Shown here in pieces: positions 40,414-63,617 of a stretch of DNA of 64,000 nucleotides. The notes below the pieces were generated by a model. The model worked only from the letters and a program-made list of their open reading frames with translations. It had not been told where the DNA came from and ran no database searches. The DNA lies in NCBI GenBank assembly GCA_000727475.1, contig KL647289.1, forward strand, positions 6,996,629 through 7,060,628, given 5' to 3'. A program made the translations under genes and the position numbers. The DNA is from Sarcocystis neurona (taxonomy: Eukaryota > Apicomplexa > Conoidasida > Eucoccidiorida > Sarcocystidae). Within the stretch, counting starts at the first letter, position 1. The number at the start of each line of letters is the position of its first letter.

Positions 40414-43400
40414 CTCTCTTCGGCAGTAGAGCCGCGGGTAACACGACGGAGCACACAGCAGCAGCACTCCTCGAGACGTGTGCCTGTCGCTGAATGCAGT
40501 CACCGATGCATGCGGTCACCGATGCATGCAGCCACCGATGCGTGCAGCCACCGATGCGTGCAGTCACCGATGCATGATGCATGCAGCCACCGACGCTTGC
40601 CGCTGTCACACTGCGATTGATTAAGCACTTGACACAGCGGAGTTATTCAGCGCGATGTATGGCTACTGCACACTCTTGTGGGAACACGCATGCGTATATC
40701 TACGCGTGCACTCCATGAGGACGCGTATGAAGGGAACGTGGTACACAGAGGTTATAAATAAGCCATGTGTGCGTATGTCTATGGTGACGTCACTGCTACA
40801 GTGGAAGCACGCAAGGTCCATGTATGGGACGGCGGGGCGTACAGCACTTGTGCGCTGGAAAGCTGTCGCGTGTGACATGGGCTGCATGTACCAGCTTAGC
40901 ACATTCCGTTGCTCGCTGCCTGTGACAGCACTGAAAGCTGCAGCACTCGCTGCAGCAGTCGCTGCACACAGTAGCTGAAGCCCACAGCAGCACTTCTCGC
41001 CTGCAGCAGGTGCTGCCCTTCGTTGCAGATAGCAGCTGAAACACGCGTAGAGGTCAGCGCACGAAGAAAACTGACAGAGAACCAGGCATCTGCACAGCAG
41101 TAGGTAAACCTGCCAGATTCAACCGCCTTACCCCTGCAGCCCGTTTCTTACGCAGTAAGAGCGGGCAGCACTCTCAGGTCTCCGGTTTTCGTTGCATCTA
41201 GCAGCACAACTAGCAGATACGAGTGAAGAACACGGGTCAGGGTGTATGTACACTCCCCAGAGTTCCAGGCAAAACTCCGAAGGACTTCCCATAAAACTGT
41301 GCGGCTCGTGTGCGGAGGTGTTCAGCGCAACTACAGCGTGCCTTCCGAAGGTGCAAGAGTGGCACCAGTTGACGCCTACAGTAATTGGTTCGCGCAGCAA
41401 CAGCGACGTGAAGTAGCTGCCTGCTACCTCAGCTCGGTCGCCGTCTGTAGCGCCAGAGGCGCGCAGAGGACGCATCTCCGTGGCCCACTAGATTCTACGA
41501 GAAAAGCCACCAGCATGCGGCGCTTGCAGTTTTGCTTGCGTGGGTAAGCACTAGTCAGCATCGACTATATTGCGACCAACATATCCCTGAGTGCTACAGA
41601 TCTACGCATGCTGCTCCGGCACTGGCTGCAAGCACATTCATTCACTTCTATGTACGTATATGTGTACAGACACTTGCAGCTGTAAAGTCTTGTAAACGGA
41701 TACAGATGGGCAGCCAAGGGGAGAAGGTACTCGTCCCGATTCCTGCACACCAAGACAGCTGCAGTGTGGTACGCACAGAAATTGCTGCACACAGATACAT
41801 ACATATATATGCGTGTATACGGATAGGAGTAGGAAGGAGTATGTGCTGTCAGTGTGTGCGGCCGAGGACATACACGAAGTCTTCCTGACGAACGATTCTT
41901 CGTGACTGTTGTTCACAAGTATACAGACTCTCAGAAGCACGCAGGTACACGATGGCGCCACTGTTCCTTTTTGCTTCTTCTATATTAACTACAATCCTGC
42001 ATATATATGTATATATATATACATATACTGATCACTTGAGGGTAAGAAAGAAATCACGTTGTGTACGGCTCTAAGCATCCGCATCTGCCGGTATCTTCCA
42101 CTGCTGTGGTACAGGAGAAGAAATTGCACTCAGATGAACGGGTGCATCTGCAGAACATGCGCAGCAGGCAGTAGCAGTATGCACGCACTTGTGTGTTAAG
42201 CTCGCTTTGTTGAGGGCTGGTAGAATTTGTTGTCATCACCGCACACAGGCGATGTACATTGCAGACATAGTCGGCCGCGTGCGCGTAAATCATCCACACA
42301 AAAGTAGGTCTACGCATATATATATATATACATATGCATGTATACGTGTTTGTACAGAGGAATGCATATACAGGGTTGCATACGCAGGGGACTGCGACAA
42401 GTGCGGTAAATGTGGCAACTCACGAGATGGAGAGAAAGTGTCACACCTGTAACCTACAGAAGTGTAGTTAGCAGGGAGTGTATGTGTACATCTCATCATC
42501 AGTAAGCTCGTTGTTTCAACATCACCGCACGACAACAATTCACCTGCATCAGCATCCGTGTGCTTAGCTCTTTGTCCACCTGACCACAACCACTTGTGTA
42601 CACGTACGAAGCCGGAAACTCTCTACGATCCCTTGAAACGCTGCATGGGGGCTGGGCGCCCTACCTCTGCGGCCTGCAACTCGGACTTGCAGTTTGTAGT
42701 TTAGATACCACCCTACGACGAGGCTTTCGAGCAGCACGACAAGAGGAAGGACGATGCGCGTGCTGACGGTCAAGATGAACGTGTTGGCCTGCAGCCGCGA
42801 CACCGCAGCAGCAGCAAACGCAAGGAAGCAGCAGCACAAATGACGGCAGGATCAGCGGGGGAGGAGATATGTAGGCGACAGCAGCGCAACAGTTGAGTAG
42901 CAGCAGCGGCGTGAACGGACAGCAGTTTCAAGGGATGATACGCAAGTGGAAACAGCAGCAGGGTGACCTCTGTTGCAGAGTAGCGGCACCAGCGACGGCG
43001 TTAGGGGTAATACGGTCCACCGCGGGTGGCGGTGCACCGTCATGGATCTTGCCGTCTCTCTGTATCTCTGTCTCCCTCCAACCGACAGCGCCAACAGCAG
43101 CAACGTCAGCAAAAGGCGCCAGTCTTGACTGTACACAGAGGTGCGGGACGAGAGAAAATATACGCCCAGTTTTCCCGGGACAGATAGCACGGCTGTCTTA
43201 TATATATATATATATATATTGGCGGTCGTGCAGATATATGCACACTCTTTCTCCTTCCATGTTGGAAACTCTCTCACCTTCTTCTACGTACGGATATGCG
43301 TACGTATACATATATATAGATGTAGATATTTGCTGGGTACAACAGGGACCACAGCGTCAAAGCAGACGCACCAGTGAAGCGCTGTGTATGGCGATGGCAG

Positions 43401-46400
43401 GGTGAAGAAATTTGGGCTCTACCTGAAGAGAGTGCAGAGGGCCAGCTGCCGCACAGAGGCTGAGTCGTTTCCTTCGTCTATCTGGGCTGTACCAGTGCTC
43501 CCCTCGTACAAGCAACGGCAGAAAAGCGCCTTTTCCCACGACAAACAGTAAGCACGCCGGTAAACCGCGTGACGCCAGCTGCCTCGCAATACCTAGATTC
43601 CTCTGTGTATACATATACATAGGTATATATGTATATATATATGTATATGTACACTCTCATATGCAGTGCGTGTTAGCGTTGTGCGTAGTGGGTGAATGGG
43701 TGCGGAAATCCACGACTCACTATTTTTATCCCTCCGTATATCTCTGCGTCCTAACGCCTATGTATACATGTGTGGAGATGCAGTTTGTACGCTCAGAACG
43801 CGTGCACTCAGTGTGGCTGTACGACTGGCAGCGTCCCTTCTCCCTCACTTTTGTTCTCTCTCTGTTCTTCCGTTGAATACATGCAAGGACAAGTGAACAA
43901 AGCACACGTGTGCATTCCAGGACACCCGCGCGGAGCAGGAAAGAAAATCTTCTATACATGTGTAGAGATTGAGTCGCAATGTGTGTGCCTCCACTCATCT
44001 GCGGGAATGCCTGAAAGCGCTTGCGGACCAGCAGAAAAGCGGAGGGACGTAATGAACGACTTCTTCCATCTGTACGCGCCCCTTGAGCCTCACGTGGGTG
44101 AACAGCATGCGACACACAAGGGAGTCATGCTATGTGGCTGCATATTATTTACGCGCGTCCAGTGAGTGCGTCTTCCCACCGTAAGCCGGGAGTCGAAGCA
44201 GACTAAGATGGTGAAGAGGAAGACCGTCAACAGCAATCCGGTTGTGAGGACCCCGTGCCAGCGAGGGCTCGCGATGCGACTTTCCTGCATCAACAGGTCC
44301 GCTCGATCCAACTTTTACTCCACTCGTGTATACGCAGACCTTATCTCTCTATATTCATGTGACACGTACAATGTATATAGGCAGAGATACTATATGCACA
44401 TCAGTTTACATTTATTTATATATATATACTTATGTATAGAGAGATATAGACATAGATATATATATATATAAAGAGAGAGAGACAGACAGACGGACGAGAG
44501 ACAGAGAGAACCACATATACATATATATGTATGTATAATTTTGAAGTTGGTGTAGACACTCACGTATATACACATGTGGAATCACCCCAGAAAGGAGACG
44601 GAGATAGAGAGGCAGCACCATGCAAACGAACCTTGCAGTTGGAAAAGTGCGCTCGGATGGCTCGGCTATGTTGTCCACAAACAGGTTTTGCACTGCATTT
44701 CCGCATTTGTATTTCTGCAGCTGCACACACGCATATGCTTGTCGCCAGTGCGGGAAATTGCAGACGCATGCTTCTTCCCTCGCGACTTCTGCAGCCCGGC
44801 AGACAACAAGGATTCTGCTTCGTGCAATCGCAAAAGGAAAGAAAGACGAAGGGAAGGTTGCAGCACTGTATACATTTCCTTTTGCGTAGCGACTGCCTAC
44901 TGCCTGTAGAACCCGTAACGATAAAGGTACGCGCACTTTTGGTCCCTGTACTACGGTGGGAATGCTCCTTGAGTGTGAGAGGTGGAAACTGAAAGAGCAG
45001 CTAACAGCCGACGTGAGCGTTCAGCTGTTCTGCAATTTTGTACGCAGGACATACACGCACATACGCGCATCTCTATCTTTTCCTTTTGCTGCTCGTACGT
45101 CTATCTATTGTAACACGAGGTGCACAATACTCCAGGTCACTTTTGGGGGGTGCGAGAGAATCTCTGCATGCAGAGGCTTTTGCTGGTGGACGAGTGATGT
45201 ACCGGTGCAAAATCACATGGGCAGTCAGGCGCCTGCGGCGTTGTTTGTGTAGGACGCAGCATAACCGAAGGCGTGAAAGCTTCGCATGTAATTTTTGCCT
45301 GCTGCATTCCCCAGCTGTGGCACACCAGGTGACACGTCACTGCATGCTCCGACTGCGCTGCATCCGCAGGTGGTTTGCATTTTTGCTAACGCTCTCTGCA
45401 CGCAACCTTGGCCTCCTCTGTGCAACAGATGGGTGGACGGTGCACAGCACAGCTACTCGACGATCAATTGCGAGGTCGACACATGCCAGCAGCAACCACC
45501 TAACTAATCAACAAGATAGATGCGTAACTGACAGCGGCTGTGTGCAGGCAAGAGGAACGAAGGCATTGCCGCCGATGGAGACTGTGAAGCAGCCAGGTGG
45601 ACACAGCACTCTACAATCAGAAATCCGTCACAGCTACACAGAAGGAGGACCACGAAGACCCCGAAACGCTGACACGCAGGGCAGAAAAGTCTAAAGAGAA
45701 GTGCAGGTGCAGGGTATCCATTTGCCGGTGTGTTGTGTCGCCGAGGTGTCTCACGGATGCACACATCATAGTAGAGGAGGAGGCGTGACGCTGAGAATTC
45801 GGATGAAAGGAGGAGTGGTCAGCGAGACAAGCGTAGTGCTGCCAAAAATGATGCTGCAGTGTTTTTTCCTCTCACCTGAAACACAGCAAGGAAAGTGTGG
45901 AAAAGAATTGCCACCGTTTGTGTGTCCAGAAGAAACATGCCTCCGTACAGAAACATTGAAAAAACCTGCAGTCCCAGAAGCAATCCCCCACACCCGCACC
46001 ATGGGTGTGCACAGCTTCGAAGAGATTCAGACACAAGCTGGTGCCTGTTTATGTGTGCGTCTATCTATCTGGATGTTGACGTATCGGGAAATCCACAAGG
46101 ACGGGCCGCGGCAAGGCGTACGGTTACGTGCAGACATGCGTCTTTATGGGTTCGCTTGTCTTTCTGAGTCTACGGGTGTCTGGCCATGCACACAGACGGG
46201 CAGCTACACGGCATTCAACGCCGCGTAGACGCGTGACCACCTGTACTTGTTTTCGTCTACCATTGTAGGTCTAGGTGTATCTGGCCTGCTGTTGCTGCTG
46301 CTGTTGCTGCTGCGACGGACAGCACGAGGTTTTCCCTACATACATTTGCATATGTATACGGTGTTTTTCCTTATAGTGCATTCACACACACAGGTACACT

Positions 46401-47450
46401 GCTGAGGATCTTCTAGCGGATGCAGGTGTGTTTCTGCACAGTGCCGCATGCGTAGCACGTACACGTACACGTGTGCCGGCCAAAACTTTCACACACACAC
46501 ACACACACACACGTATTTGCATGCACTTGCAGTAGATGCAACAACACTCGTGAAAGGCACATGACCAAGTTCTTAAAACAGCCGGAACGTCGAAGCGGCT
46601 GCACCTCGTACACGACAACCTTGAAAGCGCTGTGGAAAGTTATGCTGTGGCTACTGGCGCGGCTGACGTGAAATGAGGCCTGCTAGAACTTCGAACGGCC
46701 ACTGTTCTTCATGGACTTCATCTCTCAGCTGAAAGATGCTCCCACCTGTCCTGCTGCCAGAGACGCCGTACGCACATGCGTGCCTTCTACTGGATGTCTG
46801 TGATCCTGTACTCCAGTGGCCACATATATCTATAAAAAGTCTACATTGGTGCTCCATGGATTTATGTGCGAGAAGTGTCATTTCTGCACGCTCCCGTGAA
46901 AAGAGCCACTAGTGCGAATGCTACGTGTGAAGTCTCGCGTGTGCTTGAAGTCTCGCCGCATGCAGCAATCTCACTGCAGCTGCTCCACAACGCGGAACCG
47001 TGCGGCCCGCGTGCCCGCCGGCGACAGGCGAGCAGGGGAAAAGCGTTCATCCACTGCACTCTCCTCCTGGTCTCTCCCTTCTACATTTGTGTGCAGGCAC
47101 AGAAAAATAGACCCCTTATTCGGAAACGGGACACACCTCCTCAGCTTCGTTCACGCGTCCACAAGTATTCTGCACATGTGGAAAGCAAGAGTGACATCTT
47201 GCTTGCCCTTGCGTCAGCGGAAACGAATCTCGTCTGTGGCACTTACGTTGGCAGCAGATATATTTACAAATCCGGCTGGGTAGATGGCGAAGTGTGCAGG
47301 GACGTGACGCGTCTTCAACACCAGCTCGGGTATTGGAATGCCCGTATCCGACTGAGACCCACGACACATACACGCCACGAGCACCAAGCAGCAACCTTCA
47401 TCATGGAGTTCCTGTACATGCTAACTTTTCAACGCGTGATAACCATGCAC

Positions 47451-47488
<38 letters not shown>

Positions 47489-50400
47489 GTATATATATGT
47501 ATACAGGTACGGTTTTCTGTATACCTATAGTCTGTATGTGTGTTCACACTTGCGGCTTGTCGGTGATAAAGCGCACCTTGTGCTTCACTACGTGAAGTGT
47601 ACACACGAGTGGAGCAGCTGCTGCACCGCTTGGGAGAGGAGACTCTTCTTCTTGCACCGCAGGAGAACCAACGTAGGCAACTGTGTCTCACGTCTGGGCT
47701 TCTGTTGCTGCAGGATTCACAATACCGAGCGTAAGACTCGTGCGGGAAGCCGTAGCTCTGCGAATTCCGGCTTGTGCAACCACCGACCGGGATTCAAGGA
47801 AGCACGTCTTCGTGTTTGAGTGATGAAACTCTCTACACAGATAGAAAAAGAAGCACTCCAGGAGGCTCTGCATGCAAGACAAAGAGACATCTGGAGCAGG
47901 CGAGCGGGATTGCGTGTCGGCGCATTTGCCTCTCTGTACAGACTGCCAAGGCGACTTTCCCATGCTGGAAAAAAGCCACCGCCGCGTCGCTGTGCGTGCA
48001 GTGCTCTGCTCGAAAGGGGGATGCGAAACAGCAAATGTGCTATCCACACATATATTTTTCGCTAAAGAAAAAATTGCGTGTAGTCGAACGCTGAGGGGGC
48101 GAGAGGTCAAAGGCGGGGAGGCGTAAAATCTTTGCCTTCACAAAGAACGGTGAGCACCAGGAAGGTTGGCGCACTTTCCGATGAAAGTTGTCCTTGAATG
48201 CTGCATGCCTTTCTTGTCGAGAGGCGTATACACTATAAATACTATATATGTACAGAACAAAGTGGACACAGTTGTAAACACGTGTCTGTGTAGCGGGCAC
48301 AGACATGCAGTGATTCAAAGGCTCCTGCTAATGTGTGTGCTGCGCACACGAGCACTTGCATATAACCTGCTGAACGGCAGAAAAATCGGCAAGTAAGTTC
48401 GTCGTGGAGACCCACGCCTTCTGTAGACCGAAACTGCTGTGCTCTGTGGGTCTTCACGTGGTTACGAATCATCTAGCAGAACGTCTATCAATACATGTGT
48501 ACATACACAGGCATGTGCACAGCAGCGGACGCTTGTGCGTACAGCGTCTCACATACGTGTTTATAAAATAGCGTTTACGAACTCGTAGATAAACGCATGC
48601 ATATACATATATATATATATATGTATATATACGTAGATATGTATATGTACACATATATATATATATATGCATGTGTATATCTACGCATCTATCCCACTTA
48701 GATATTTGATTGCATATATATATATATATATATATACACATAATATTGGGGTTTCAAACTTGCAGAGGCAAGTAATATATATATATATGCAGAGATATAT
48801 GTGTATATACATATATATATATGTGTACATGCCCAGGCACACGCACACCTAGCGCATGCTCTGCACACAGGTCTCGTTTCGTAGGTATATAGCCGTCGGT
48901 GTACGTATTCGTACGTCTGTCGTGACCATCCTGTGGCCCTACACAAGTGTTGACTTCTGTTGTACAGTCCTCCACGTTGCACTTGAATACAAGTGTAAGA
49001 ATGCTTGAGCTTCCGAGGTTTTGCAGGTGTGTTTGCGGTTGTGAACGGCTCTGTTCCTCATTATTACCTGCACACTTCCGAGGACCCCTAGAATCGCGAC
49101 CAGGGCTGCTGCGCTCATACCGACCTGAATAAAGGCGGCATAGTTGCCGCCCGGCACCACGTTGTAGCCGATTCTGGGGAAGAAACAGAGCAAGCAGAAC
49201 AGCAGACGCATCCGTTTTCGGCGAGAAAGAGCGGGCTACAGAGGCAAGAGGCAGACGAAGAAATGCGCGACGGAAAACAAGTGCAGCGTGAGAAACCAAG
49301 AGGAGAAAAGGGAGGGCGTAAGAGTGCTTGAAAAGAATAGGCGCCGGACGCACCGGTACCTCCTGTTTTCTCTTTTGACGCATCGCCTATGCTGACGCAC
49401 ACTGGTGCAGGCCTTCGCACGGCCAGCCGCTTCCTTTTCGCGGCCTGGTGTCAGGGATATAATGATATGTGCTCAACCCAACAGAGTCCTGTAGTACGCG
49501 TCGGTGCTTTCGAAGTCCTTTGTCTCCCTGCTGGACGAGAACTCTCCATAGAGATCCCCCCTGCTCACTACCGATCCACGCATGCATATGAGTGCACACA
49601 CAGATACGTACACGTACACACGCAAGTGTACATACCCACGTAAACAACATCTACACACCCATACCTACGACCACGCACATATATATTCACACCGACAAAT
49701 AATCACAGGCACACACAGACACACGGGCACACACAGACACACGGGCACACACACACACACACACACACAATACATACGTCCACACGCAACCGCAGACGTA
49801 CGACTTGATACGGACGTCTGGGCGAATACTTCAAATTTGTAAGTCCAGGGCAAAACGTCTTGTCGTATGCAAGCGCCGCGTGTCCCCCTGCAAGGCTTCA
49901 GCAGCTAAACGCGTCTCCGAGTCAGCTCCCGCCCACGAGTAGAGCGCGCAGTTAGATGCAAACCAAGAAACGCTTTTCGCCGTCTTGCGTTTCATCAAGA
50001 ATCTTACTTCTCTCTACACCCTATTCAGATATATACAGGTATATATATTAGTTATGTGCACTTTCTCTCCATTCTGGACCGCATAGACCAAAGTCTCTTT
50101 GTGAAGCAGTTTTTCCGCCGTGTACATAAAGACAATATTGAGTTTATTTGTCTCTTTGCGCTCTTTGGCCATGGATACATGCGTATGTACGACTTCTCTC
50201 CATCTGGGGTCCTACAGACCAGAGTTTTTCATAGGACTACCTCTTCTAACTTGCGCTGCGACACGTTGACTTCACCTACGCAGTTTTGATAGATATACCT
50301 AGATGCAGATACACATACGTATACATACATGTGTGTATATTTTTATTTCGAAGAAGGCACGTGCGCCACCTTTACACATGTTACAGTGTAGCAAACAGAT

Positions 50401-53400
50401 ATGCACATGAAGACGCCTTAAAAGGTAGGAGGCTTGGCTTACAAATAAAACTGCTCTCCAACATATACACAGGGACCCCCAGTTCCACGCAGCTGTACAA
50501 GCGCCTACGGCACCGCTGTCGCTAGCACGTCTTCCCAGTTGATTGAACGACTATTTATGGACGCAGTGCCTCAGACAACAGAACAACTTATTGTCTACTT
50601 TTAGAAACGACGGTGCTGGTAGGTTCGTGCGTACAGAAACACTCCTACGTGTGTCTAGGCTCCACAACTTGATAGAGGAAAGAGGTCAACACAGTTGGAT
50701 GATGTGCTGGTACATACACGCGAGCACATACATAGATATATATATATATGTATATACGTACACAAGTGCACAGGAACACACACGTGTATTTTTTCAGTGT
50801 ATATGTGGCATATAGCATAATCCAGCGAAGAAGGAACTCTCGTCCTGACCCATTTTCTGCGACTTTCGTCGTGATAGCGACCTGCCCTTGCTGCCGTGTC
50901 GGCTCCTGCTAGGGTCACAGAGGATTTTCAGCAGTTGCGTTGGCCGTTTCAAAATTCTGTTCTACGTAGTATAGCCATTCGTGTGTTTGTGGCCGCATAT
51001 CGTGGTGGAGGGCCGTCGTTTAGCGTCTCGAATGCTCTCACTATGGATACGTACAAATGCCTGCGTACAGGCGGCAGAAAAAGCGTATAGAAGTGTAGGT
51101 GTGTCCACACACACGCCTATGCAGACACAAATACTTTCGCTCATAAATGCCTGCATACACAAGGTAGCCCATCTACACTGTCCACAAGCTTGCTGACAGC
51201 AAATCGTCCTGCCTTCCCAACTGCGCTGGGAACGATTTAAAGTGACCTCACGAAAACGACAGTTCTGTAGGACATGCGCACACCCATATATACATATGTA
51301 TATATGTGCATGTATATACGTCTACGTGGGATTGTGTATATGGGTTTTCTTCGAGAGGTGTGCGTATATGGATGTTTCTGTTGCATCGGCTTATCACTGT
51401 TCTTTGGGTAGGTGTGAAGTCTTCTTCGTTGCAGTTGCTGGCGGCCGGGTCGCTGCATGCAGAAGGCGTGAGCCCACAAGGAGCTTGAGAAGCGGCAGAG
51501 GAGTGAGGAGCAGGCCCCGTGTTGGAAGCGTGGACCTGCTGCCCGAGGGGAATTTCCTTATGCGTGTGTGCAGGAAAAAAGGTAGAGAAACAGCAACGCT
51601 AGATGCCGCCGCAGGCTAGTCAAAGCGCTGCACGAAATCCCGACGACACGCAGACGCAATCGTCAAGTAGCGTCGTCTAGCGGTCCATACGCGAACTCAG
51701 ATAAATACGCACACGTAGTTGTTCACATGTGGACACATTTTTACTGACGAAGCCGCACCTCAGGATGGACGTCTGCACAGAGTGGGAACGAGGGACATCG
51801 GGCATTTGAAAACAATACTGAAGAGGCACAGTACTGCCATTTTCCTGCTACCCTAATGACTCTTCGAAGCATTTTCCTCTCTTGCGTGTCCTTCCCTCCC
51901 GCAACAAGGCACCCGGCAGCACGAAAGCAAGGTCTTCACTGTTTCGTAATCTCGCAGACTTGCAGCTGTGACTGCATACGGATGGGGAGCAGTCAACCCA
52001 TTGCAAAAAACTACACAGGAGGAAACATCGATGAAAGGGAAATACGAGGCAGGACAGAGAAAAACCAAAGAGAAGTGAATGTACAGGCGATGTTGGCCAA
52101 CGTAATACTGGTAGCACAGGTTTAACATCTTGTTGTCCTAGCTTCAATAAGAATCTCGGTATCGGCGTGTGTAAGCTGGCGCGTGCCGCGTCTGGAAAGG
52201 CACGCATATGCACGCGCAATGGTGGACGAACGGGACTTGCTGGTCAAAATGCGGAACCCCGATTCTCCTGTCTTCGACCAAGCGTTTAAATTACTACGTG
52301 TGATGTACAAACACGTTCGCGTGTGTGTGTGTGTGTGTGTGTGGAGCTGCACACAGACATGTGTATGAGGCAATGCCGCCACCTGCGTGAGGATGTACAC
52401 GGATAGACTTTGACTTGCACACTTATATATATATATACACGGATACATATATATATATATATGTACATACATACACATATATATGCGTGTGTAAATTGTA
52501 GGTTACTGCGAAGCGCTGAGCTTCTGAAGATAAAACATTGTGCAAGGTGAGCAACACGCAGACACACGTGAAATGAGACGTAATTGTTGTCGTCTCTCTG
52601 ACTGCTATCTCGTGCAGACTTACTTCGTGTAGCTACTAAGAGCTTGGTACACGCCGCAGCCAACATACAGATCCGTCAGCATATCTGTGAAGCACGCCGT
52701 AAGGATTGAACAGAGCCGTTCCAACTTAAAACCCCCCAGGACTTCAGCAGCGATCTTGGCTGTGTTTGTCAATATTCCCGTGGACGGCTTCTCCACCAGG
52801 CACACGACCACCAGCGTTCCCGAGAGCAGGAAGCCAAGAAAGATGAGCAGTGCGGAAGCTGTGACGCGGCAGAAAAGGACACGGTGTAAGTGTGCGAGGG
52901 ACGGATACGGAAGGAGGAGAAGTGGAAGAAGACAAGAAGTCAAAATCAAGGCGAGGCAATTTGAAGGGAGAGGAAGTTCTGCAGAACAGGAACAGAAGTA
53001 AAAAGCAGAGCAGCACGGTGAGACCAGACGAGACACAAGGGAAGCTGGTAAAGAGCAAAACCGAGATAAGTGGACGAGAACGGAGAACGAGCATCAGCAG
53101 AAGCAGACCGGGAAGAGATAAAACAAGGGAGAAGACAGTAAAGAAGAAAAGCAACGTGCTTCAGCTGAACTAGGGAAAAGAAGTGAATGAGGTGGAGTAG
53201 ACAAAGCAGAAGAGGCGCAGGTAAAAAAGGGGAGAAGAGCAGAAGGAGAAGCATCAAATAAATGAAAGAGCAGAAGGAACAGAAGAGAAGACGACGCAGC
53301 GAGCGAATGAAATATACCTTAAAGAGAAGAAGGCTTTGAGACAGTAACGACCATCAACAAAGATGAAGAAGAAACGAGAAAGAAAAGAAAGAAGGAAGTC

Positions 53401-56400
53401 ATCAACGACGAAGAGCGAGCGAGTGAATACAAAGAGCAAAGTGGAGTAGGTTAAACTGAAGGCAATACAGTGCCGGGAAAAACACAGGAACAGAATATAC
53501 ATTGAGACGTAACGACTGCTTCGAGCAAGCGCCAGCGGTTGGTATTACAGTAATAAAAAAAAGGTACTCTATCCATTCCACGAATTGAAGGCTATCTGCT
53601 ACGGTTCTTCTGACTTTGTGAAAAATGACGCAACAGCAATTCGAGCTGGTGTAGAACGGAAGCCGTCGGCGCCCGCAAAACTCCACACGCACCAGTGGAA
53701 GGCTGGCAGCAAGCAGAGAGAGACGGCAACGCAAAACAGGCAATGTTCAAGAAGAAGAATGGAAACTGATTGACAGTTGCTAGCGTAAAAGGGATATTCG
53801 GAACAAGGTATAATTCTAGGCGCTACTAAATCCATATTGATATACTCGTGAATGTGTACACATACACGTTAAACTATGTATTGTACTTATGTATGTGTGT
53901 ACGCAGGCGCACACGGGGACACAGAGGTATCCAACAACTACTTCATCAGTAATACTGTACCACGAAGACCGGTAGACCTTCAGAGAGATAGGGAGACAAT
54001 ATTTGTCCTTACTGTCTGCGCGTGTACGTGGGATTAAAAGGAAACCTACTGCATACAGCGTTTCCTTTAGGGGAGAGAAAACAGAGGGGCCGAAAACCTC
54101 TAGGAAAAAAGGAGGAGTTTGTGGAAGGCGCACACACTATAGCGGCACCCCTCACAGATCACGCAAAGCGAAACTCAAGAGGATGGACAGAAAAACAACG
54201 CTCAGGGAAAGACACGTGATCAGCGAGACAGAGAACGCGCGAATACTTTCAAGGGAGCAAGACTATAGTAATGCAGAAAAAGGGGGCAGAGAACGCCCAA
54301 GTACTTGCGGGGGGCCAAGTACTGCGGTAAATAAGGGAAAGGAAAAGGGAAGCGAAGAAAAGTGACACGGCCTTTCCGAACGAAGAGAGCCGACGCTGAT
54401 CTCTCTCAGCCATGTACAGGTATCTACATGTAGACCCGGTGCGACTTCGATATCATCTTATTACACGTGTGCATTGTATGCGCGTGGACCTTCGCACGCG
54501 TGACTATCGGTATCCACCAAGCACACAAACACATACATGTGGATATGGTGTTGATGGCACATACATGCATATGCGTGCAAAAAGGGTACGATATAAACGT
54601 AGAGACAAATATATATGCGTGCATGTATAGATACAAAGGGATTCACAAAAATGAAAGGGCACTATGTAGATTTTACATTTCTGTGCACACGTATGTATAC
54701 AGACACACTCACGCATAAACGAAGATACGCATATCAACATACACATAGGTACACGATGGTTCCTCTAGATGTAGCCGCCTAGATACACGTCGGCATACAC
54801 ACACGCGTACTTACATACACGCGTACACACATACACACCTAAGCGCATGTATATAAGGGTACACACATACACATGTAAACAAATATACGTACAAACATAT
54901 ATATACATATATACATAAATGAATAAGTGTACGTTTCTACAGACCAAGAGTACTACGTACCTGCAGACAAACTCACACGAGTGCACATATGGAGGCATGA
55001 GCTTGTACGCGTGTAGATGCACGTGTAGGGGCGCAGCGGCAAACCCGTGGCCGCACGCAACCCACATCAAAGTACCAGCTAACTGCATCTCTTCTGCGTG
55101 GATTTCCTTTTTGTAAGTGCCACTACATGTTCGCAGATAGGTCAACAGACAGCTCTCGATATACACGCAGGCACGCGTATATAAACATAGGTGTATAAGA
55201 GCATGCGGGTCCTCACCATTATGGAGTCTCATTTTACGTACGTATGGAAGCAAGCGTGTGCTGTCAGGTAGAAAGACAGGCTGCACCCCACACCTAAGAC
55301 AGTGTATGTTTGGGTGCTTTCTTATCTGTATATCTACCTATGTGTCTGTCTGATTATCCAGCTTCATATTCGTTTGTACGTATGTATGTATGTATGTATG
55401 TACATTACAACACGTCCCTGCGGGTCTCCGTCTTTGTCTCTGTGGGACACACTCTAAGCCTCTTCCGGTGACTGGACAGTATCAAGTGTGTAGAGCCAAC
55501 AGTCTTTCAGGCTCACTTCCGTGTAGCCGTCGGTCAACAGACTTCTTCTTACGGAATCTGCTTGACGCACGTGCACACACACACGTATGCGGCAAACACA
55601 TCCACATCCGTGTCCGTACATACGTTTGTTCGTATGGGTGTCGCGCGTGTAGATTCACACATATACACGTACATATTCTTGCGGGCTACGTGAGCTGTCC
55701 AGGGACCTGTCTTCATAAATATGTTTACGTATAGATTGGTACGCAGTCGAAGCGCATCTACCTAGACGTGAAAAATACATCGGTGCACACATATCTGTAT
55801 ACACACATATATCATACACCCCGTGCTGATACTTACTAAAGCCTAAACGGAAGAGACCCCGCCACGTGTGTGCGAGGACCAGCAGCCAGACGATACCGAC
55901 GCTAAATGCATACTTTACGTCCATCGTCTTTGACTTTAGTGAGTGGTCGATAAGACGCGGTTCGTGGCTGTTCAGGAAGTAGTGCGCTGCCTACACAAGA
56001 AAGCAAAGCACAAATATGTACACACGTATGTGTGTGACTGGCAGTTTCATGTCCCGTTACGTAGTCACGCTTTTGTGTTTAAGTCGATACGAAAACACTA
56101 GCATACGTGTAGAAATATATAGATCCCTGAACACGCAAAGACGCGTATACAGATCCACGTGTACCTGTCTCTGTTGGCGCGAGGAGAGTCGTGCCAGTGT
56201 GTGCTTGTACTTACAAAATACCTGGGCTCAGATAGAACTACACGAAACCATATACACATGCATATATATATATACGCGTAGATTTTGAAACACAGAAGGC
56301 TCCGTGGATACTTGTATAGAAGGGACTAAACGCACACATATGTGTGTGTGAGCACAGAGGTGTGCGCGTAAATCAGAAGTGAGACCCCGCTGCTACGAGC

Positions 56401-59400
56401 AGCTGTATAGAGAGACGAGCAAAAATTTTTAATCCATTTCTTGGCGTGTACCTAGGGGGTGTACGTAGGGGAAGATCGACGGAAAAATGTGGAAAGCACA
56501 AAGCGTGTCGGATATGAAGAAGCGTTCCAGGTAGTCAAATCGACCTGCTGAGAGAACAGAGTACGCTGCGCCTTGCACGTCTTAGCGTGTGTGCACACAC
56601 GGAACATGTGGAACATCTACGCCTTTGAACGTTGAGACTTTCTTGAGCACGACTTTCTACATAAGTGTAAAAGTCTTTCTCCAGCGGGGGTACTTAGGGC
56701 TCAAGTTTTATTTCGCCTTTTGAAATACATATAGGTTTACCTCGGTCGAAAGGCGTGTAGGGTTCAGCTGACACTGCAAATAAGCTGACGAGAGAATAAA
56801 CTGCCTTCGCTGCATTCTGAAAACAGGTATGTATACGCGTAGTAGTGAAGGCCCATCAGTGTTCGTGTTGGTATGCAGGGATACCTGTGTCAGTAAGACT
56901 TACAGACGCATGTGCAGTTCTCTCCACCGGGTGCCACGGTTACAGAGGTCTGTGTTTGCACACGAAGAATATATATATATATATATATGGGTGGATCTCT
57001 ACCGTCTCGGTCTCTAGCGTCTTGAAGAAGTGCACACCTCATTACAGCTGGCGCATCTGCAGAGGTAATCTGCTATCGGTCCTCGCCAAAGACGAAGCAT
57101 TTCCAAACTTAACAATCGTGTTTTGTAGCTTCGCCCGCATACAGTAGTTATTCGCACATCAAACTACAACCACCTGTGCACAAGTGGAAATATATATGTC
57201 GGTGTCTTTCGCGCAGCAGCGACTTTTTTCGTCGTAGCGCCTGATGCGGAAGGCAGAATATCATCCCTGCGTTATGAGACGAACAGCTACTGCCTACGCA
57301 GCTGTTGCGGAGCGCCTACTTCAGTTGCGTCCAGTGGTGCTGCTACGTCCGGTGGTAGCGGTGCCACTGCTCTTGCCGCATGGACCGACAAAGATGTCTC
57401 GGTCTCTTGTGCTGTAGGTGCAGTCCAGCTGCAACTTTCCCAGTCTAGACCTATGTAGGGACTCCCCCTCGTGCCGCTACTGCAGCTCGCACACGCTGAG
57501 CGGCTGCCTTCGTCTTTGTGGCTGCCCAGTGGATTGCTGTGACTGCTGTCCTTGATGGCGTTGCTGTGGCTGGACGCGTTGCTGCCGCTGAGTTTGCCAG
57601 CGGTGTCACCGAGTGCTGCTGTCGTGGAGCTGTTGGTGCCCCGTATGCTGCTGTCGCTGTTTCTTCGTGAGGTCCGCTGGAGGACGCTCCTGCCTGGGAT
57701 GTTGTTCTTGTGTTATGAGGATATACCACTATCCTCGTGAAGGGCGTACCACTGAGTTGAGGATGTCAAGCTTCTACGTAACAACGGAGGCCACCAGATT
57801 TGGCATATTGCGTGACTTCAACGTGGTAGCAATGTTGTCCTCGTCCCTGCTACCTACTGCAAGTCGTTCTACTGCTGTCGCATGTAAAGCTGCTTGCAAG
57901 AAAGCTGCGACGTTTCGCTGCTGCTACACGAAATACGGCCACCGGAAAAGGAGGAAGCATGAGGGACTTCTTTTGTTTGTTCTTGCTGTTACTATCCCTT
58001 CTTGTAGTCGCTGCGTCTGGCACCTGTTGTTGCTTCTAACGCGGTTGCTTTCTTTGCGAAGGCTGCTGGTAATCGCGCTACTGTAGAGTGCAATTCTTGT
58101 GCTAACTTCTTCGTAGGGTACACAGTGCTTGTTGTGGCCGTCAGTGGCCTTCTCCTTGACCTTCTTTTTGGCCTGTCATCGCATGCGATGTAGGCCTTCG
58201 GTGAAACTTTGCACGCGTGTAATACTAGTGCGCCTTCGACAGAACCGGAGCACTATCCCCTCCTTTTTCTGTATATCTGGTGAACATACAGCGATTGCAA
58301 CGAAGGCAAGAGCGGTCCGCGCTGCGGCTACTTTGCTTTCTACTATGGTTCTTCCCCTGGCGGCTCCCTTTCGTCTTGTTTTAACAGAACACTACTTGCA
58401 TTCCAGCGACAAAAACGGCTGCTCCTGCTGTTTTCATTGGAATCACTAACGTCCGACTCCTGCCACATTAAAGTCGGTTGCTGTGAACATGCGACGGCTG
58501 CTCTTGCCTTTTTCTTATTCCTGAAGCTGCTACAGCGGTCCCATAGAATTCCTTACCTTTCCAGTGGGGGAGGGAAGACACCGTGCAACTTTTTCAGAAT
58601 ACGAGCATAAGAAGTTGTATCCAGCTGCGTTGCATTCCTGAGCTGTTTGATGCACAGCGCATTCAGCGACATCGCTTTCCGTTAATTCCCACGGCATGGG
58701 AGACTGCCAGCTAGCCACGAAGTACAGAAATAAATGCGTGGCGTAGGCTGCAGCAAGTCCACCACATCACAACCGAAACCAGCGCAGCAAAGATAGCAAC
58801 AGAAGCAACATCACATCACCTGCCGCAGCAGCAAGAACCGCAGCACCAGCGCCAGCAGTACCAGTATTAGCAGCATCTCTAACACACCGCTGCTGCTATC
58901 AGCGGCAGCAGTAGCCGGACAGGCAGCAGTGTGAGCAGTATCCACGGAGGGACCAGAAGCAAGAAAACGGGAGAGCCTGGGTTATGACTTGCATGAGCAC
59001 GCGTGCAGTTACGGGACAAAGACACTGCGTGTTAGCTTGGGAGGCGAGGAGCAGCAACAGCGCATGACGGTCACAGCAACCGTGCCGGAGTGGCACGGAT
59101 GCTGAATGTAGTCTTCTTGGAGCCAGCATGGTTACTAAGTAGAAGGAGAAGATGTACGGGGACACCTTCGCTGAAAAAGGTCTTTTAGTTTATGCTATGT
59201 TCCACGCTGTTTAGGAGACATTCTTCCGAAGTGAATCTGTCCCCGCAAACGCGTTGTGTTCACATGCTGCTGCAGCACACAGTTGGTCGACGGTCCGAAA
59301 ATTCTCTCACTTATGTATCTGCAACTATATACATGCATATATATGTATATACACACATGTACGTGTATGTTCATCCGTAGAGGGAGAGAATACCTACGTG

Positions 59401-62400
59401 TGTCCATGTAATTATGTGTGGATGCGCCTCTTTGAATGCTTCACAGCGTTTACCCTGTGTCCGTTTCACTGTGGTTCAATGCCTGAAGGCAGCTGCACTT
59501 TCTCAGGATTGCTGTGACTGTAGACATGTTCCGGGTGTAGATACGTGGACGGTGACAACTTGGATGGAAACACCATACGTCATTTGATACGGATAAGTTA
59601 CACATCTGCCTGTTGTCTATGTACGGAAACAGATTTTCACATATAGGCGCCCCTGGACATGTACGCTGTATACTGTGCGTGTACGAATCAAGGGTCGGAA
59701 ATGCTACTGCTGCTGGAAAGCCCACCTGAGCGCAGAGCTAGTCGTAAGAAGTTATCGAACGCGATTGCAAGGCCCAAGCCTGCGAAGTAGGGATTGATCT
59801 GTGTGAAACACTTTACCACGCTCCCTCGGTAGAGATTGCCCAGCAGCATCTGCATGCACACAGCCGCATTCCAGCCTCGCACACGCTCCAAGTGGCCCAG
59901 CTGGGTGCTCTCTTATACTCTACTTGTAACTCTATTTCCTTCTACAGATACAGAGGTAAAGATACACATGAAGTATTAACCCTTAGATGCACAGAAAGAC
60001 AGATATGCAGATCGGTATCTAGAGCGACCGATGTCTGCGCACGAGAAAACGTGGCGTCGCCTGGAAAGTACTTCTTCACGTATTTCCGCGGACGCACATG
60101 TCTGTCTCAAGGGACTCATCAGGCGCCTCGCTCTCCCTCAGCTCGGAATAAAGAAGCTGGATGGGTAGTTGACCTGACAGGTGAGTTTAACACCAGTCAC
60201 AGTCTCTTCTTGGCTGCCCTCTCATGATGTATGCAACAAGACGCTCTTTCCGCCGAAGTACAGTGCAGCGTGCCCTCTACACGTTTCTTTCTTACCTCCG
60301 TGTGTATCAGCGGTATTCCTGCTGCAAGAAGTACAACAAAGTATCCCACGAAGAAATATCCACTTTCCCAGTCATGCAATTGCAACCAGAAAGATGCCAA
60401 GCAGCGGGAACTGATCACAGCACCGAAGACGGTCATCAGATAAAGTGTTTCAGTGAAGTAGAGACCTCTGTCCCTTTGTCTTTGGAGCCACGCGCGCCAA
60501 TTGAGGATGTGTGTTTCTCCTCCTTCGTCGCTGGTTAATTGAAATCGGGTAACTGCCCCCACTGATTCCGCACGAGAGGGCGCTTCTCTCCAGAGAGTTT
60601 CCAATTCCTCAGCTGCTGCCGCAGTATCGGTAGACATCAACGTAGGGACAAAAGGATGAACTTCGCGGTCGCGTGGAAGGTTGACCTGCATTGCCAACGC
60701 AGAGTGCTTGCTGCTCAGCGCTGTGACTACGTTGAAAGCAGTTCTTGGAACGCGTTCCCCGCTTTGAATATTGGCTGGAGCCGTCTGAAGGGAAATTTCC
60801 GGACGAAGTGGACTGAGGGTTGCAGCTGGTTCACTTCCTCGTAGCGTGGCCTCACGAGCTTTTTGACCCTGCATCTGTCGAAAAATTCGATCACGCGTTA
60901 GAGACGCACCTGCAGGCGGGCTCTTAGAAAACAACTGAAGAGGCGGTAGCGCAAGAAGACGTCTCCGAGAGGATGGCGCCGTGCCTTGTGGGCCGCGTGT
61001 TGCTGGCGTGATCCCTCGCCCTGCTGCACGCATCGCTGCTGCTTCAGTCGCAGCAGCCACCAAAGGAGTACGAGACGAAATAGGCAAAATAATATCTCTT
61101 CCTCCTTCTGCTACCACTCTACGATAGCGGCCTCCCCTCGCTGTCGATCCCATTGCTCCACGCTTTCCTGCAACAGCTGATGCGATGGCAGCAAAAATTG
61201 GTGCGGAATAGACGGAGCGAGTCTGGCGTTGAAGACTGCCACTCAGAGCAGACCGCACTTCGACAGACGGACCAATGTGGACGCCTGAAACTAGGCGGAT
61301 CCCTGCTGTCGATAGACCTCCTGAAACCGGCCCTCGTTGCGGAGGTCCTGTGGGCGATTCACGTAAAACAATAGGCTCTGCTTCTGGGGGAAACATGCGC
61401 TCAGGAAACATCACTTCGTCTGGCTTCAGCAATGCTCCGTTACGCTCTGCGCACTCCAAAGCGCGTAGCTGCTCCCTTAGCACTGTATGCTCGTCTACGG
61501 GTTCTTCAAGCCTTGCCTAGGGAGGTACATCAAAAAGCAGGAGAGACAAAAAAGTGTGAAATTGGAGATTGCGCAATGAATTGACAGAAAAGGGAACCAC
61601 TGAAAGACGAGAGAGTGCACAGCAGCAGACGTAGGGAAAATAGAACCGGAGGCAGACATATGGGAAGGAAGAAAAGAGGAATGATAACCAGGAAGTTGGA
61701 GGTTTAACGTGTATGGAAAGGAGGTGAGGAAGCTGGAAAAGACGAGCAAGAAGCGCGGATACAGAAATAGGTGGGCATCCGCATCTGTGGGCGGTGCGAT
61801 TTGGGCGTTGTAGCAGATTCATGTAAACGTACTTAATATGGACAGCGTCACCTGCTGTTCACCGCAGCATTCCTTACTGTATGTGCAGCACGTGATTCAA
61901 CCTGTTAGTTCAACATATCACTATTATACATACATCCGCAGACCGTCTGACGCGTACGTGTTTGCTTTTGTGTGTGTGTGTGTGTATGTGTGAATATTTG
62001 TATGCACAAGCTTGAGTACCCTCACGATTGTGGAAAAAGAAAATGCAAGTACTTGCATACAAGAAGCACCCAAGATTATACATAGCTGTGTACACAGTAC
62101 ACACGCAGAAAGTGTGGAACTGGCGCAGCTCCTCGTAGCTGTAGGGGGAATGTAAACTTGCGAGTGCGGAATGTTGAGGCGGTGTGTCAATGTCTGCGAA
62201 AACACGTGTGCAAATGTGGGAGCGCGGAAGAGTCTACGCGTGTACACAGATGTTCACTTGCGATAACTAACGAGCCACGTACCCCACTATGCGTGTGTAT
62301 ACGCGCTCAAGTTTTTCCTTTCGTCTGCGTGTCCGAATTCGGTGACCACAGGCACAGAGCTCAAAGCACGGTCGCTCACACTAGGGAGGGGGACTTCCAT

Positions 62401-63617
62401 ACAAAAACTGGAGATGTAGAATTTCCAGTTCTCCGTCTCAGGATGAGCTGCAAGAGTGCAAAACTACTGGAAAAACAAACGCCTACTGCAGCACGAAACG
62501 CTCTATCCGTAGTGTTGAAGTGTGGTATGGCGCTGGTGCTGTCGTGAACGCCCCGCAGGTCTCGGATTCATGGATAAGCCTGCAGGGACGCGGAGGTGTT
62601 GAAATGCTTTTCATTCTCACACTGATTCGATTAAGCGTATATAGAAATGTAGGTATCTACGAAGTGTGACCAATAATCAGCTCACAAGTCTAGATCCAAC
62701 AGTGGCGTTGTAAGGCTTATGAGGCGTCGAGGTATATCTTCATTCGCATGGGGGTGTGTACATATTTTGGGCGTCCTCTTTTGTGTGCATACAGCCGCGC
62801 AAGTGAAAAATCGTTCTCGGAAACATAGAAGTGCATGCCTAAATGCACATCCAGACGTAGATACAGTCGAAGCTACAAAACACGTGTAAACACTTGCAAA
62901 TACGCATGTACACGCAAACACACGTAAGCGCATAGATCCATACGTGCTCACATACGTTTACACATGTGTGTTCAGATATACACAGTATAGGCATGTAGCT
63001 GTTTTTATCTGCACCTGCACGCACACAGAGTGAAGGGGACGTAGAGGGCTTCAACACAGGCAAAGCTGAGAATCTAAGCTCATTGTTTTTGACGAAAGCA
63101 CCGCATGTTTACAGACGCCTATGGGATTACTTGTGTCACAAAGCATACATTTCCTACACAGCTGGAGACTTCGCACACCTGCACACACATACGTTGACAT
63201 ATTCACGTGTGTGTACCACGTTCGTGGAGAGGGGAGCTACAGACTTTTTGGAGGGGGGAACGTGCTCATGTGTGTGCTCGTGGATACGTGCACACAGAAG
63301 TGAGCAACGCTCACTGCATACCTGTGCAGTCGTGCGTACCGCTAAATAAATTTGTATACATGCATATATTTATATACAGATACGAAGGTACAACTCTTTC
63401 TCCTGGGAAGTGCTGCTGCAGAAAGGATTACGTATGTGTCCACGTGTATGTGGAAAACGACACGCGCCTCTGAGGTCGTTCAGCGGCTCACAATGACCTA
63501 CCTTATTTAGGTATGAGGTGGTATATCGGTACAACATGGCTTCTGCGTGGACCTGCTTGCGCAGTTCTGCGAATTCACCTTTGAAGCTGCCATCTACTTC
63601 TTCAGCCGCACCTTCAT
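40067..63617 (-). CDS. Sodium:neurotransmitter symporter (NSS/SLC6) family transporter, partial
   Basis: Twelve minus-strand exons (63502-63617, 60296-61516, 59726-59849, 58557-58747, 55837-55990, 52624-52858, 49068-49173, 47247-47351, 45876-45965, 44180-44284, 42665-42788, 40067-40413) join with perfect phase agreement into 971 residues. The 5' end lies outside the window. The NSS fold is recognised by order and spacing: GIPL after helix 2; G-x-VVK...INP before helix 3; PW plus Cys in loop 2; GCG...SSYTK in helix 6; a PAHFAIYPAGF-like segment (family: GLAFIxYPxA) between helices 7 and 8; LDTQ in helix 8; LESLVVGWY in helix 10; and helices 11-12. It is expected in a membrane, moving amino acids or related solutes. 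Oddities: a cytosolic N-terminus of about 390 residues, and loss of the helix-1 sodium motif. Substrate is unknown. Confidence 0.85.
40414..42664 (-). other. NSS intron K-L
   Basis: This 2,251-base intron contains a 16-bp minisatellite (40501-40600) and TA runs at 42001-42025 and 42316-42331. Cys- and Ala-rich frames at 40.8-41.0 kb and frames at 41.1-41.5 kb were considered and not called. Confidence 0.5.
40501..40600. repeat. 16-bp minisatellite, about six units
   Basis: Units of CACCGATGCATGCAGC with A/G and C/T variants; one unit is expanded to 23 bases. It lies just upstream, in transcript sense, of the last transporter exon. Confidence 0.85.
42665..42788 (-). CDS. NSS transporter exon K (helix 10)
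   Basis: The acceptor is GTCGCGGCTGCAG and the donor is AGAG|GTAGGG; phase 0 to phase 1. Helix 10 reads RIVLPLVVLLESLVVGWYLN, close to the family's LFVALFExxxxxWxYG, then a basic loop. Confidence 0.8.
42789..44179 (-). other. NSS intron J-K
   Basis: This 1,391-base intron has TA runs at 43200-43220 and near 43625-43650. A CAG-type stretch at 42895-42965 is noncoding by phase. Confidence 0.5.
44180..44284 (-). CDS. NSS transporter exon J (helix 9)
   Basis: The acceptor is GACCTGTTGATGCAG and the donor is ACG|GTGGGA; 35 codons, phase 0. A basic loop (ESRIASPRWHG), then helix 9 (VLTTGLLLTVFLFTILVCFD). Shorter than in typical family members, where a longer loop precedes helix 10. Confidence 0.72.
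44285..45875 (-). other. NSS intron I-J
   Basis: This 1,591-base intron has TA runs at about 44411-44426 and 44456-44470, with a GA/CAGA block at 44470-44515. Confidence 0.5.
45876..45965 (-). CDS. NSS transporter exon I (helix 8)
   Basis: The acceptor is CTTCTGGGACTGCAG and the donor is CAG|GTGAGA; exactly 30 codons, phase 0. VFSMFLYGGMFLLDTQTVAI matches the family's FFLMLLTLGLDSQF. Asp764-Thr765 occupy the positions of the eukaryotic Asp-Ser pair that helps form the Na2 site. Confidence 0.8.
45966..47246 (-). other. NSS intron H-I
   Basis: This 1,281-base intron has a CA run at 46490-46512 and is otherwise unique sequence. Confidence 0.5.
47247..47351 (-). CDS. NSS transporter exon H (loop between helices 7 and 8)
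   Basis: The acceptor is GGGTCTCAG and the donor is AAC|GTAAGT; 35 codons, phase 0. The segment PAHFAIYPAGFVNISAAN aligns with the family's GLAFIxYPxAxxxLP loop-helix before helix 8. Hidden from ordinary ORF searches by its size and a long plus-strand shadow frame. Confidence 0.78.
47352..49067 (-). other. NSS intron G-H
   Basis: This 1,716-base intron has TA runs at 47455-47482, 48605-48620, 48655-48668, 48715-48736 and 48774-48788. Several 80-110-codon frames at 47.7-48.1 kb on both strands are mutually overlapping and lack splice support. Confidence 0.5.
49068..49173 (-). CDS. NSS transporter exon G (helix 7)
   Basis: The acceptor is CTCTGTTTCTTCCCCAG and the donor is CAG|GTAATA; phase 2 to phase 0. 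Continues the SSYTK motif with IGYNVVPGGN, then helix 7 (AAFIQVGMSAAALVAILGVL). Gln696 aligns with the conserved Asn (LeuT Asn286) of the family. Confidence 0.8.
49174..52623 (-). other. NSS intron F-G
   Basis: At 3,450 bases this is the largest intron of the gene. CA-rich block at 49582-49770 (with an 18-20-base unit repeated near 49705-49748), TA runs at 50741-50751 and 52425-52463, and a GT run at 52318-52342. A minus frame at about 51400-51575 without splice support was not called. Confidence 0.5.
52624..52858 (-). CDS. NSS transporter exon F (helices 5-6)
   Basis: The acceptor is GCCGCGTCACAG and the donor is GAA|GTAAGT; phase 1 to phase 2. Helix 5 (SALLIFLGFLLSGTLVVVCL), a short loop, then helix 6 with DLYVGCGVYQALSSYTK. 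The G-x-G and SY-x-K match the family's LGxGxG...ASYNK. By this alignment Asp664 stands where LeuT has the Na1 ligand Thr254. Confidence 0.8.
52859..55836 (-). other. NSS intron E-F with 600-nt pyrimidine tract
   Basis: This 2,978-base intron is strongly purine-rich on the plus strand from about 52880 to 53500, which is a very long pyrimidine tract in the transcript directly before the acceptor. Also an ATGT run at 55377-55402 and ATACGT-type repeats at 54420-54920. Confidence 0.55.
55837..55990 (-). CDS. NSS transporter exon E (helices 4-5)
   Basis: The acceptor is TTGCTTTCTTGTGTAG and the donor is TTTA|GTAAGT; phase 0 to phase 1. Starts AAHYFLNSHEPRLIDHSLKS, matching the family's E-x-F/Y-F before helix 4. 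Then helix 4 (YAFSVGIVWLLVLAHTW) and R-G-L-F-R, in the place of the family's KG(V)K-x-x-G. Confidence 0.78.
55991..58556 (-). other. NSS intron D-E with CTG field
   Basis: This 2,566-base intron has TA runs at 56262-56275 and 56968-56988. The large CTG/GCT-rich plus-strand block at about 57290-58110 gives Ala-rich minus frames and Leu/Val-rich plus frames. The phase-matched flanking exons make it intronic. Confidence 0.5.
58557..58747 (-). CDS. NSS transporter exon D (helix 3 end and extracellular loop 2)
   Basis: The acceptor is GGACTTGCTGCAG and the donor is AAG|GTAAGG; phase 1 to phase 0. Completes helix 3 (YATHLFLYFVASW), then PMPW, where the family has the loop-2 PW motif. The loop carries four Cys (residues 516, 525, 534 and 543) that could form two disulfides. 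Confidence 0.8.
58748..59725 (-). other. NSS intron C-D with GCA tract
   Basis: This 978-base intron has plus-strand GCA/CAG triplets at 58775-58920 just above the acceptor and a TA run near 59335-59350. Confidence 0.5.
59726..59849 (-). CDS. NSS transporter exon C (loop 1 and helix 3 start)
   Basis: The acceptor is GTGCATGCAG and the donor is TCAG|GTGGGC; phase 0 to phase 1. Starts MLLGNLYRGSVVKCFTQINP, matching the family's E-x-x-LGQ-x-x-x-x-G-x-V-x-x-W...I-x-P. Continues into helix 3 (FAGLGLAIAFDNFLRLALRS). The ATG at its start is internal, not an initiator. Confidence 0.78.
59850..60295 (-). other. NSS intron B-C
   Basis: A short 446-base intron, free of TA microsatellites, with no other feature. 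Confidence 0.55.
60296..61516 (-). CDS. NSS transporter exon B (N-terminal domain and helices 1-2)
   Basis: The acceptor is CCTCCCTAG and the donor is GAG|GTAAGA; 407 codons, phase 0 to phase 0. Residues about 39-385 are Arg/Ser/Pro/Ala-rich and probably disordered, with acidic and basic patches. A pre-helix segment (WRAWLQRQRDRG) matches the family's W-x-x-R before helix 1. Helix 1 starts YFTETLYLMTVFGAV and continues ISSRCLASF where the family has GLGNxWRFP. Helix 2 ends in GIPLIHTE, the conserved GIPLxxxE. The exon ends exactly after this Glu. Confidence 0.8.
61517..63501 (-). other. NSS intron A-B
   Basis: This 1,985-base intron has purine-rich plus-strand sequence at 61520-61760 (a pyrimidine tract in the transcript next to the acceptor), a TG run at 61968-61988, and CA/ATACGT-type repeats at 62640-63350. 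Confidence 0.5.
63502..63617 (-). CDS. NSS transporter exon A (cytosolic N-terminus)
   Basis: The acceptor is TTTTCTGATTGCAG and the donor is AAG|GTAGGT; phase 1 to phase 0. Thirty-eight residues, acidic then helical (core FKGEFAELRKQVHAEAMLYR). It joins in frame to exon B, which continues the charged helix. The phase-1 entry shows that at least one earlier coding exon lies to the right; none could be found in 63618-64000. Confidence 0.7.

Follow-up and report, generated by a model that had tools for sequence, protein, structure and literature searches.

The Toxoplasma gondii protein SLF (TGGT1_208420) is described as a 16-TM protein whose TM1-13 are SNF-like and which is found in complex with a guanylate cyclase. 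Both an ion transporter and a sensor have been considered for it, and parasites depleted of SLF show impaired motility, abolished invasion and egress, and no response to acid, although the acid phenotype may also stem from lost cyclase activity (PMC9600588, in the sections drawn on here). The same sections count 208410 among the SLF-like genes, give a dotty intracellular location for three of four T. gondii SLF-like proteins and fitness scores that suggest dispensability for three of four. In Plasmodium, the SNF-like GEP1 (NSS2, PF3D7_0515500) interacts with guanylate cyclase alpha and models place xanthurenic acid in its SLC6 pocket (PMC7145802, PMC9916804, in part). SLF (208420) is called somewhat similar to GEP1 in a passage of one report (PMC7145802), while the cited part of another states that T. 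gondii yielded no homologue of GEP1 (PMC9600588). SLF and the SLF-like 208410, 285800, 314340 and 264870 are SNF-like polytopic proteins with segments past the SNF core, and the Sarcocystis neurona gene described here appears alike in these respects. A member of the SLF/SLF-like family would be expected to have about 16 TM and to associate with guanylate cyclase, CDC50.1 and UGO.

This gene lies on the minus strand of the 64,000-nucleotide stretch that we analysed (the window). The eleven exons that were joined, from 63617 to 42665, agree in phase, have GT-AG splice sites and give an uninterrupted reading frame of 857 codons, of which the first codon is split with an unseen upstream exon. The first exon recognised (63502..63617) gives a 25-column match to a paralogue (40% identity, E 0.004); the 5' end lies further upstream, and a search for the first exons of the gene did not find them. 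It is followed by an exon at 60296..61516 (phase 0/0, AG acceptor, GTAAGA donor, within the stop-to-stop frame 60197-61516) that encodes an N-terminal extension, TM1 and TM2, and by one at 59726..59849 (MLLGNLYRGSVVKCFTQINPYF) that runs from the end of TM2 to TM3; for both, an SNF match supplements the splice evidence. Splice sites, phase and exon comparison then place the end of TM3 and EL2 at 58557..58747, TM4 at 55837..55990, TM5 and TM6 at 52624..52858, TM7 at 49068..49173, the EL4 region at 47247..47351, TM8 at 45876..45965 and TM10 at 42665..42788 (exon comparison also bears on 59726..59849), while the TM9 exon (44180..44284) was placed by splice sites and phase and aligns with a T. gondii homologue. 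The comparisons of exons with the paralogue were taken among the matches listed, many low-complexity matches having been set aside by eye. Beyond TM10, an open frame at 40070..40642 (approximate limits) is the probable TM11-TM12, and three stretches are collinear with the C-terminal part of the T. gondii homologue: 36765..37004 (approximate limits; tblastn to residues 755-834, E 1.6e-6), a possible exon at 33274..33399 (weak tblastn to residues 843-884, E 0.20) and the last recognised coding stretch at 29333..30519, with an Ala-rich tail (30511-30323 matching residues 887-949, E 1.2e-4). All lie on the minus strand. A run of N beside an AT repeat (32422-32719) falls within a presumed intron of the gene.

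A paralogue of this gene occupies the opposite strand of contig C2 at about 7085762-7105701, its TM1 exon starting about 25 kb beyond the window. Its eight TM1-to-TM8 exons agree with the window gene in splice position and phase at all seven junctions between them; a TM9 exon was not found in this neighbour. Since the phases match over eleven exons and the splice positions are identical in the paralogue, a frameshift or a missed exon is unlikely. The earlier note had read the frame around helix 1 as open over 407 codons and free of a frameshift, which holds: exon 60296-61516 is exactly 407 codons long, and phases match across the eleven exons. Over its joined exons this multi-exon coccidian gene is intact, and it is predicted to encode a polytopic membrane protein. 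T. gondii 208410 and 208420 are likewise neighbouring gene numbers, as the two S. neurona paralogues adjoin.

Assignment to the SNF family (PF00209) rests on the joined exons, as the 407-codon exon alone stays below the cut-off of 27 bits (10.6 bits, E 0.22) and the joined exons pass it. The TM1 exon with the next exon reaches 35.9 bits (E 4.6e-9), and TM1-TM10 joined reaches 73.2 bits (E 2.4e-20) over profile positions 9-441 of 524. In a PDB search with a join of five pieces (E up to 10), 48 of the 51 distinct matched sequences were SLC6-type transporters, the best being a betaine transporter (E 1.3e-6); the remaining three were unrelated (E 0.0057, 0.38 and 1.6). By its sequence, then, the protein is a member of the SNF/LeuT-fold superfamily, sharing with LeuT/SLC6 symporters the TM1-TM10 profile match, the order of helices, the GxG of TM6 and the GIPL of TM2.

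Among about 5.8 billion proteins searched with a TM1-TM3 query, one of 212 candidates matched at E <= 1 (E 6.5e-29), a 1004-residue 'transporter [Toxoplasma gondii ARI]' (here P0121). A first protein search with the five joined pieces gave no match, perhaps for want of some exons and owing to an unsuitable length range. Proteins of Neospora, Hammondia, Eimeria and other coccidians were not among the matches, an absence that means little in a search that needs shared words and similar length; P0121 is the one coccidian comparison outside the source genome, and no orthologue of the window gene itself came up in other genomes in that search. It scores 74.9 bits against SNF and matches the window gene at E 1.2e-117, in collinear pieces from residue 207 to 949 of 1004, of which the C-terminal ones cover 755-949, one of the three being weak. 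Kinship to the SLF family is presumed through P0121, a T. gondii SNF protein; none of the comparisons linked P0121 or the window protein with a particular numbered gene of T. gondii or with a cyclase complex. A simple scan gave it 15 hydrophobic segments, and its mass of 110.7 kDa bears on its identity with SLF or 208410 but is not decisive; SLF-Ty is expected at 120 kDa (PMC9600588, in part). In aligned core columns the window gene is 38.7% identical to P0121 (191/493; also 38.7% over 496 residues in the sequence match) and 40.0% identical to the neighbour (183/458), while neighbour and P0121 share 48.1% (223/464). A tree of seven rows unites the three in one clade (100/100) and groups the neighbour with P0121 (86/89), so the window gene may predate the split of the two parasite lineages; with seven rows only, we take this as a tentative suggestion that it split off before S. 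neurona and T. gondii diverged. P0121 being nearer to the neighbour, the window gene may be an SLF-like paralogue, and the dotty location and the fitness scores of most such T. gondii proteins then count against the signalling role favoured below.

The window gene departs from Na+-coupled transporters at helix 1. The core reads ISSRCLASF at 60415..60389, residues 368-376 of the 407-codon exon (the minus-strand translation of 60360-60462 is LMTVFGAVISSRCLASFWLQLHDWESGYFFVGY), so that LeuT G24-L25-G26-N27-F28-L29-R30-F31-P32 faces S-S-R-C-L-A-S-F-W. The signature GLGNxWRFP of Na+-coupled NSS/SLC6 proteins is thus replaced by ISSRCLASFW; its form GLGNxxRFP occurs in 120 of 120 proteins listed from a search with LeuT, a biased sample made of the best 120 of 8000 and hence those nearest to LeuT. 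The register is gap-free against the betaine transporter in phmmer and with LeuT-type proteins in MAFFT; in the hmmscan match to SNF, 82 residues pair with 82 profile positions, and helix 1 of P0121 is gap-free in hhalign. Three methods, hhalign through the T. gondii relative, thereby bear out the loss of the signature in a gap-free alignment, as first seen in the earlier note. Its numbering of Cys410 and Ser413 is recovered once the preceding exon, with 38 complete codons, is included, and the helix-1 Pro is indeed lost, LeuT P32 being Trp. Of the flanks it took to be aligned, the F, G, Y and GIPL do so, unlike the pre-helix W-x-x-R (W8 is Tyr and R11 is Glu). In MAFFT, R5, F31, Q34, G41, F43, Y47 and GIPL are conserved, and N38, G39, G40 and P46 are changed.

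Could the segment be an artefact, whether a wrong exon, a frameshift or a sequencing error? No point in support of this was found, and the alignment is gap-free on either side. Neither of the two other frames over the segment gives the signature. No alternative exon for a canonical helix 1, the finding that the earlier note had thought fatal to its claim, came to light either: when 113,972 bases around the window gene and its neighbour were translated in six frames, neither WRFP nor GLGN turned up. We regard an artefact as highly improbable. Among looser patterns, one gave a single match, NELRFS (63084, minus), which was rejected since its surroundings are not helix-1-like; another picked up helix 1 of the neighbour itself and, by chance, a match at 46000.

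The changes extend beyond helix 1 to the other elements of the sodium sites and gate, for which we assume the LeuT roles (N27, T254 and N286 in Na1, T354 and S355 in Na2, R30-D404 as outer gate). In LeuT numbering, the MAFFT alignment gives for the window gene, the neighbour and P0121, in that order, S/G/G at G24, S/A/A at L25, R/G/G at G26, C/D/T at N27, A/T/T at L29, S/T/S at R30, F/F/F at F31, W/W/W at P32 and R/R/R at R5; further along, it gives R/I/K at Y108, D/D/D at T254 (in the TM5-TM6 exon), Q/D/D at N286 (in the TM7 exon) and L/K/N at D404. The window gene therefore has C, D and Q in place of the Na1 side-chain ligands N27, T/S254 and N286, and S and L in place of the outer-gate pair, features in which, along with helix 1, it is unlike LeuT/SLC6 symporters. 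The helix-1 Asn, Arg and Pro are missing from all three proteins, as are the customary Na1 ligands of TM6 and TM7 and the Asp of the outer gate; only the window gene among them has G24S, G26R and a Gln at N286, where its relatives have Asp. The suggestion that other coccidians share the change is thus upheld in part: in P0121, Asn27, Arg30 and Pro32 are gone, yet the two helix-1 glycines lost from the window gene are still there. In the neighbour, each of the three Na1 side-chain positions is occupied by Asp (N27D, T254D, N286D). For P0121, HMMER pairs the TM6 and TM7 Asp with Ser and Asn of the dopamine transporter, and hhalign agrees with MAFFT for TM1 and TM6. At the Na2 ligands T/D354 and S355, MAFFT puts Q and T in the window gene, in an uncertain register that HMMER also gives for P0121 but that hhalign shifts by one residue. 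A TM8 Asp-Thr considered for LeuT T354/S355 was discarded, MAFFT and the HMMER register placing it two residues earlier. The TM6 and TM7 ligands have changed as well, and so has the partner in the outer gate, which makes a loss of canonical Na1 coupling likely. The literature searches listed no report on the Na+ sites of the SLF/SLF-like family.

We also asked where the window gene departs from its relatives. At core columns where neighbour and P0121 agree, it has the same residue in 138 of 221 (62%). Among 282 stretches of nine residues with at least four such columns, four keep none, and these lie in the core of helix 1, in the part of TM7 that includes N286 and in a loop before TM4, so that two of the three places are Na1 elements; this count was an after-the-fact look and serves as a pointer, not a test. 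The TM1 core and the TM7 site each retain 0/4 of the common residues, and of 24 common glycines 20 are kept, G24 and G26 being two of the four lost. Such a pattern could mark a relaxed or decaying paralogue, in which the neighbour does the work, the window copy drifts and helix 1 was struck by chance, and the loss of both helix-1 glycines in this copy alone among the three would fit as well. We consider decay improbable in view of a frame open across 11 joined exons with GT-AG splice sites, the 138 of 221 common residues retained and the C-terminal stretches that still match P0121.

The earlier note proposed a carrier uncoupled from Na+. Loss of the canonical coupling is likely, as judged from the residues above, but a carrier was assumed, and T. 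gondii SLF and Plasmodium GEP1, the nearest described relatives, are reported partners of guanylate cyclase. In a working carrier that is Na+-uncoupled or runs on a different ion, H+ for instance, the Asp at T254 or N286 would be the binding site for protons or some other cation. Since Na+ and other cations can be ligated by Asp, its presence at either position is no proof against ion binding; it is found at T254 in all three proteins and at N286 in neighbour and P0121, leaving room for a possible binding of protons or another cation. The unresponsiveness of SLF-depleted T. gondii to acid would agree with such a carrier, but may come from loss of cyclase activity (PMC9600588, in part). Both outer-gate partners are changed in all three, moreover, and the pocket varies from one to another (Y108 is R, I or K). 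On balance we hold this carrier to be unlikely.

We favour, with somewhat better than even confidence, a place for the window gene in the SLF/SLF-like branch of SNF proteins as a sensor or scaffold, probably of a guanylate cyclase complex, rather than as a Na+-coupled carrier. This is the simplest account of three members that all have altered Na1 side chains and an altered outer gate: the TM core of SLF/SLF-like proteins would act as sensor or scaffold, and its partner would probably be a guanylate cyclase complex, as reported for T. gondii SLF. The pocket of the window gene would be rebuilt with charges, Arg at G26 and Y108 and Asp at T254, which could stand in for a bound cation and form a network replacing both the ion and the substrate carboxylate. 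ApcT and CaiT are LeuT-fold carriers with a basic residue in place of Na+. Against the sensor or scaffold stands the difference in pocket residues among the relatives, which may mean changed substrates, not lost transport, and P0121 is named 'transporter' in its sources. GEP1 resembles the window protein in its predicted SNF/SLC6-like fold and in a conserved N-terminal segment that precedes TM1, and one of its docked pocket residues, K335, is basic (PMC9916804, in part); to equate K335 with LeuT Y108 is a guess.

As a further, speculative step, which we think doubtful, the branch could have turned a LeuT fold into a fixed-charge receptor subunit. Charges of the protein would replace the Na+ of Na1, and the conformation of helix 1 and helix 6, and through it guanylate cyclase, would be set by pH or by an acidic ligand instead of Na+. 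Arg at G26 and Y108 would face Asp at T254 in the window gene and the neighbour would present three Asp, so that the cue sensed would differ between paralogues whose pockets carry opposite charge. Should the Na1 site and the outer gate prove to be missing from the whole branch, Na+ symport would be the least probable of the options between ion transporter and sensor, LeuT positions 24, 26, 27, 108, 254 and 286 would be the place to test sensing, and caution would be due in annotating SLF-branch genes as Na+ symporters.

AlphaFold2 models of P0121 had a mean pLDDT of 46.4 (21 rows) and 53.4 (79 rows). Helix 1 appeared as one unbroken helix, at about pLDDT 37-60, and several structural alignments paired LeuT 26 with P0121 residue 255 instead of residue 252, its partner in the sequence register. 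Given the low pLDDT, the unbroken helix and the shifted pairing, the model cannot serve to confirm the helix-1 register or to measure distances.

Elsewhere in the genome, a 2436-residue open frame with a strong SNF match (contig C20, 1262322-1269629, minus) has LEIGCVWRFP as helix 1, with Asn27 changed to Cys and WRFP, N286, T354 and S355 kept. The SNF signature is thus not lost throughout the genome, and N27C alone, present in this more ordinary relative, is not special to the window gene's branch. A Gln-rich 899-residue frame (contig C9, 2161552-2164248) matches the window protein weakly (E 1.3e-4), its helix 1 being apparently AENTGSLWTA. Within the window, a 1465-codon open frame (15145-19542, minus) has no Pfam match at E 0.01, five further frames scanned gave no Pfam family, and Rfam gave 0 matches in the 64 kb. 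Adenylate/guanylate cyclase domains (PF00211) occur on contigs C4 and C2 of the same genome, the one on C2 (119.7 bits, 6950886-6956020) lying about 40 kb before the window start.
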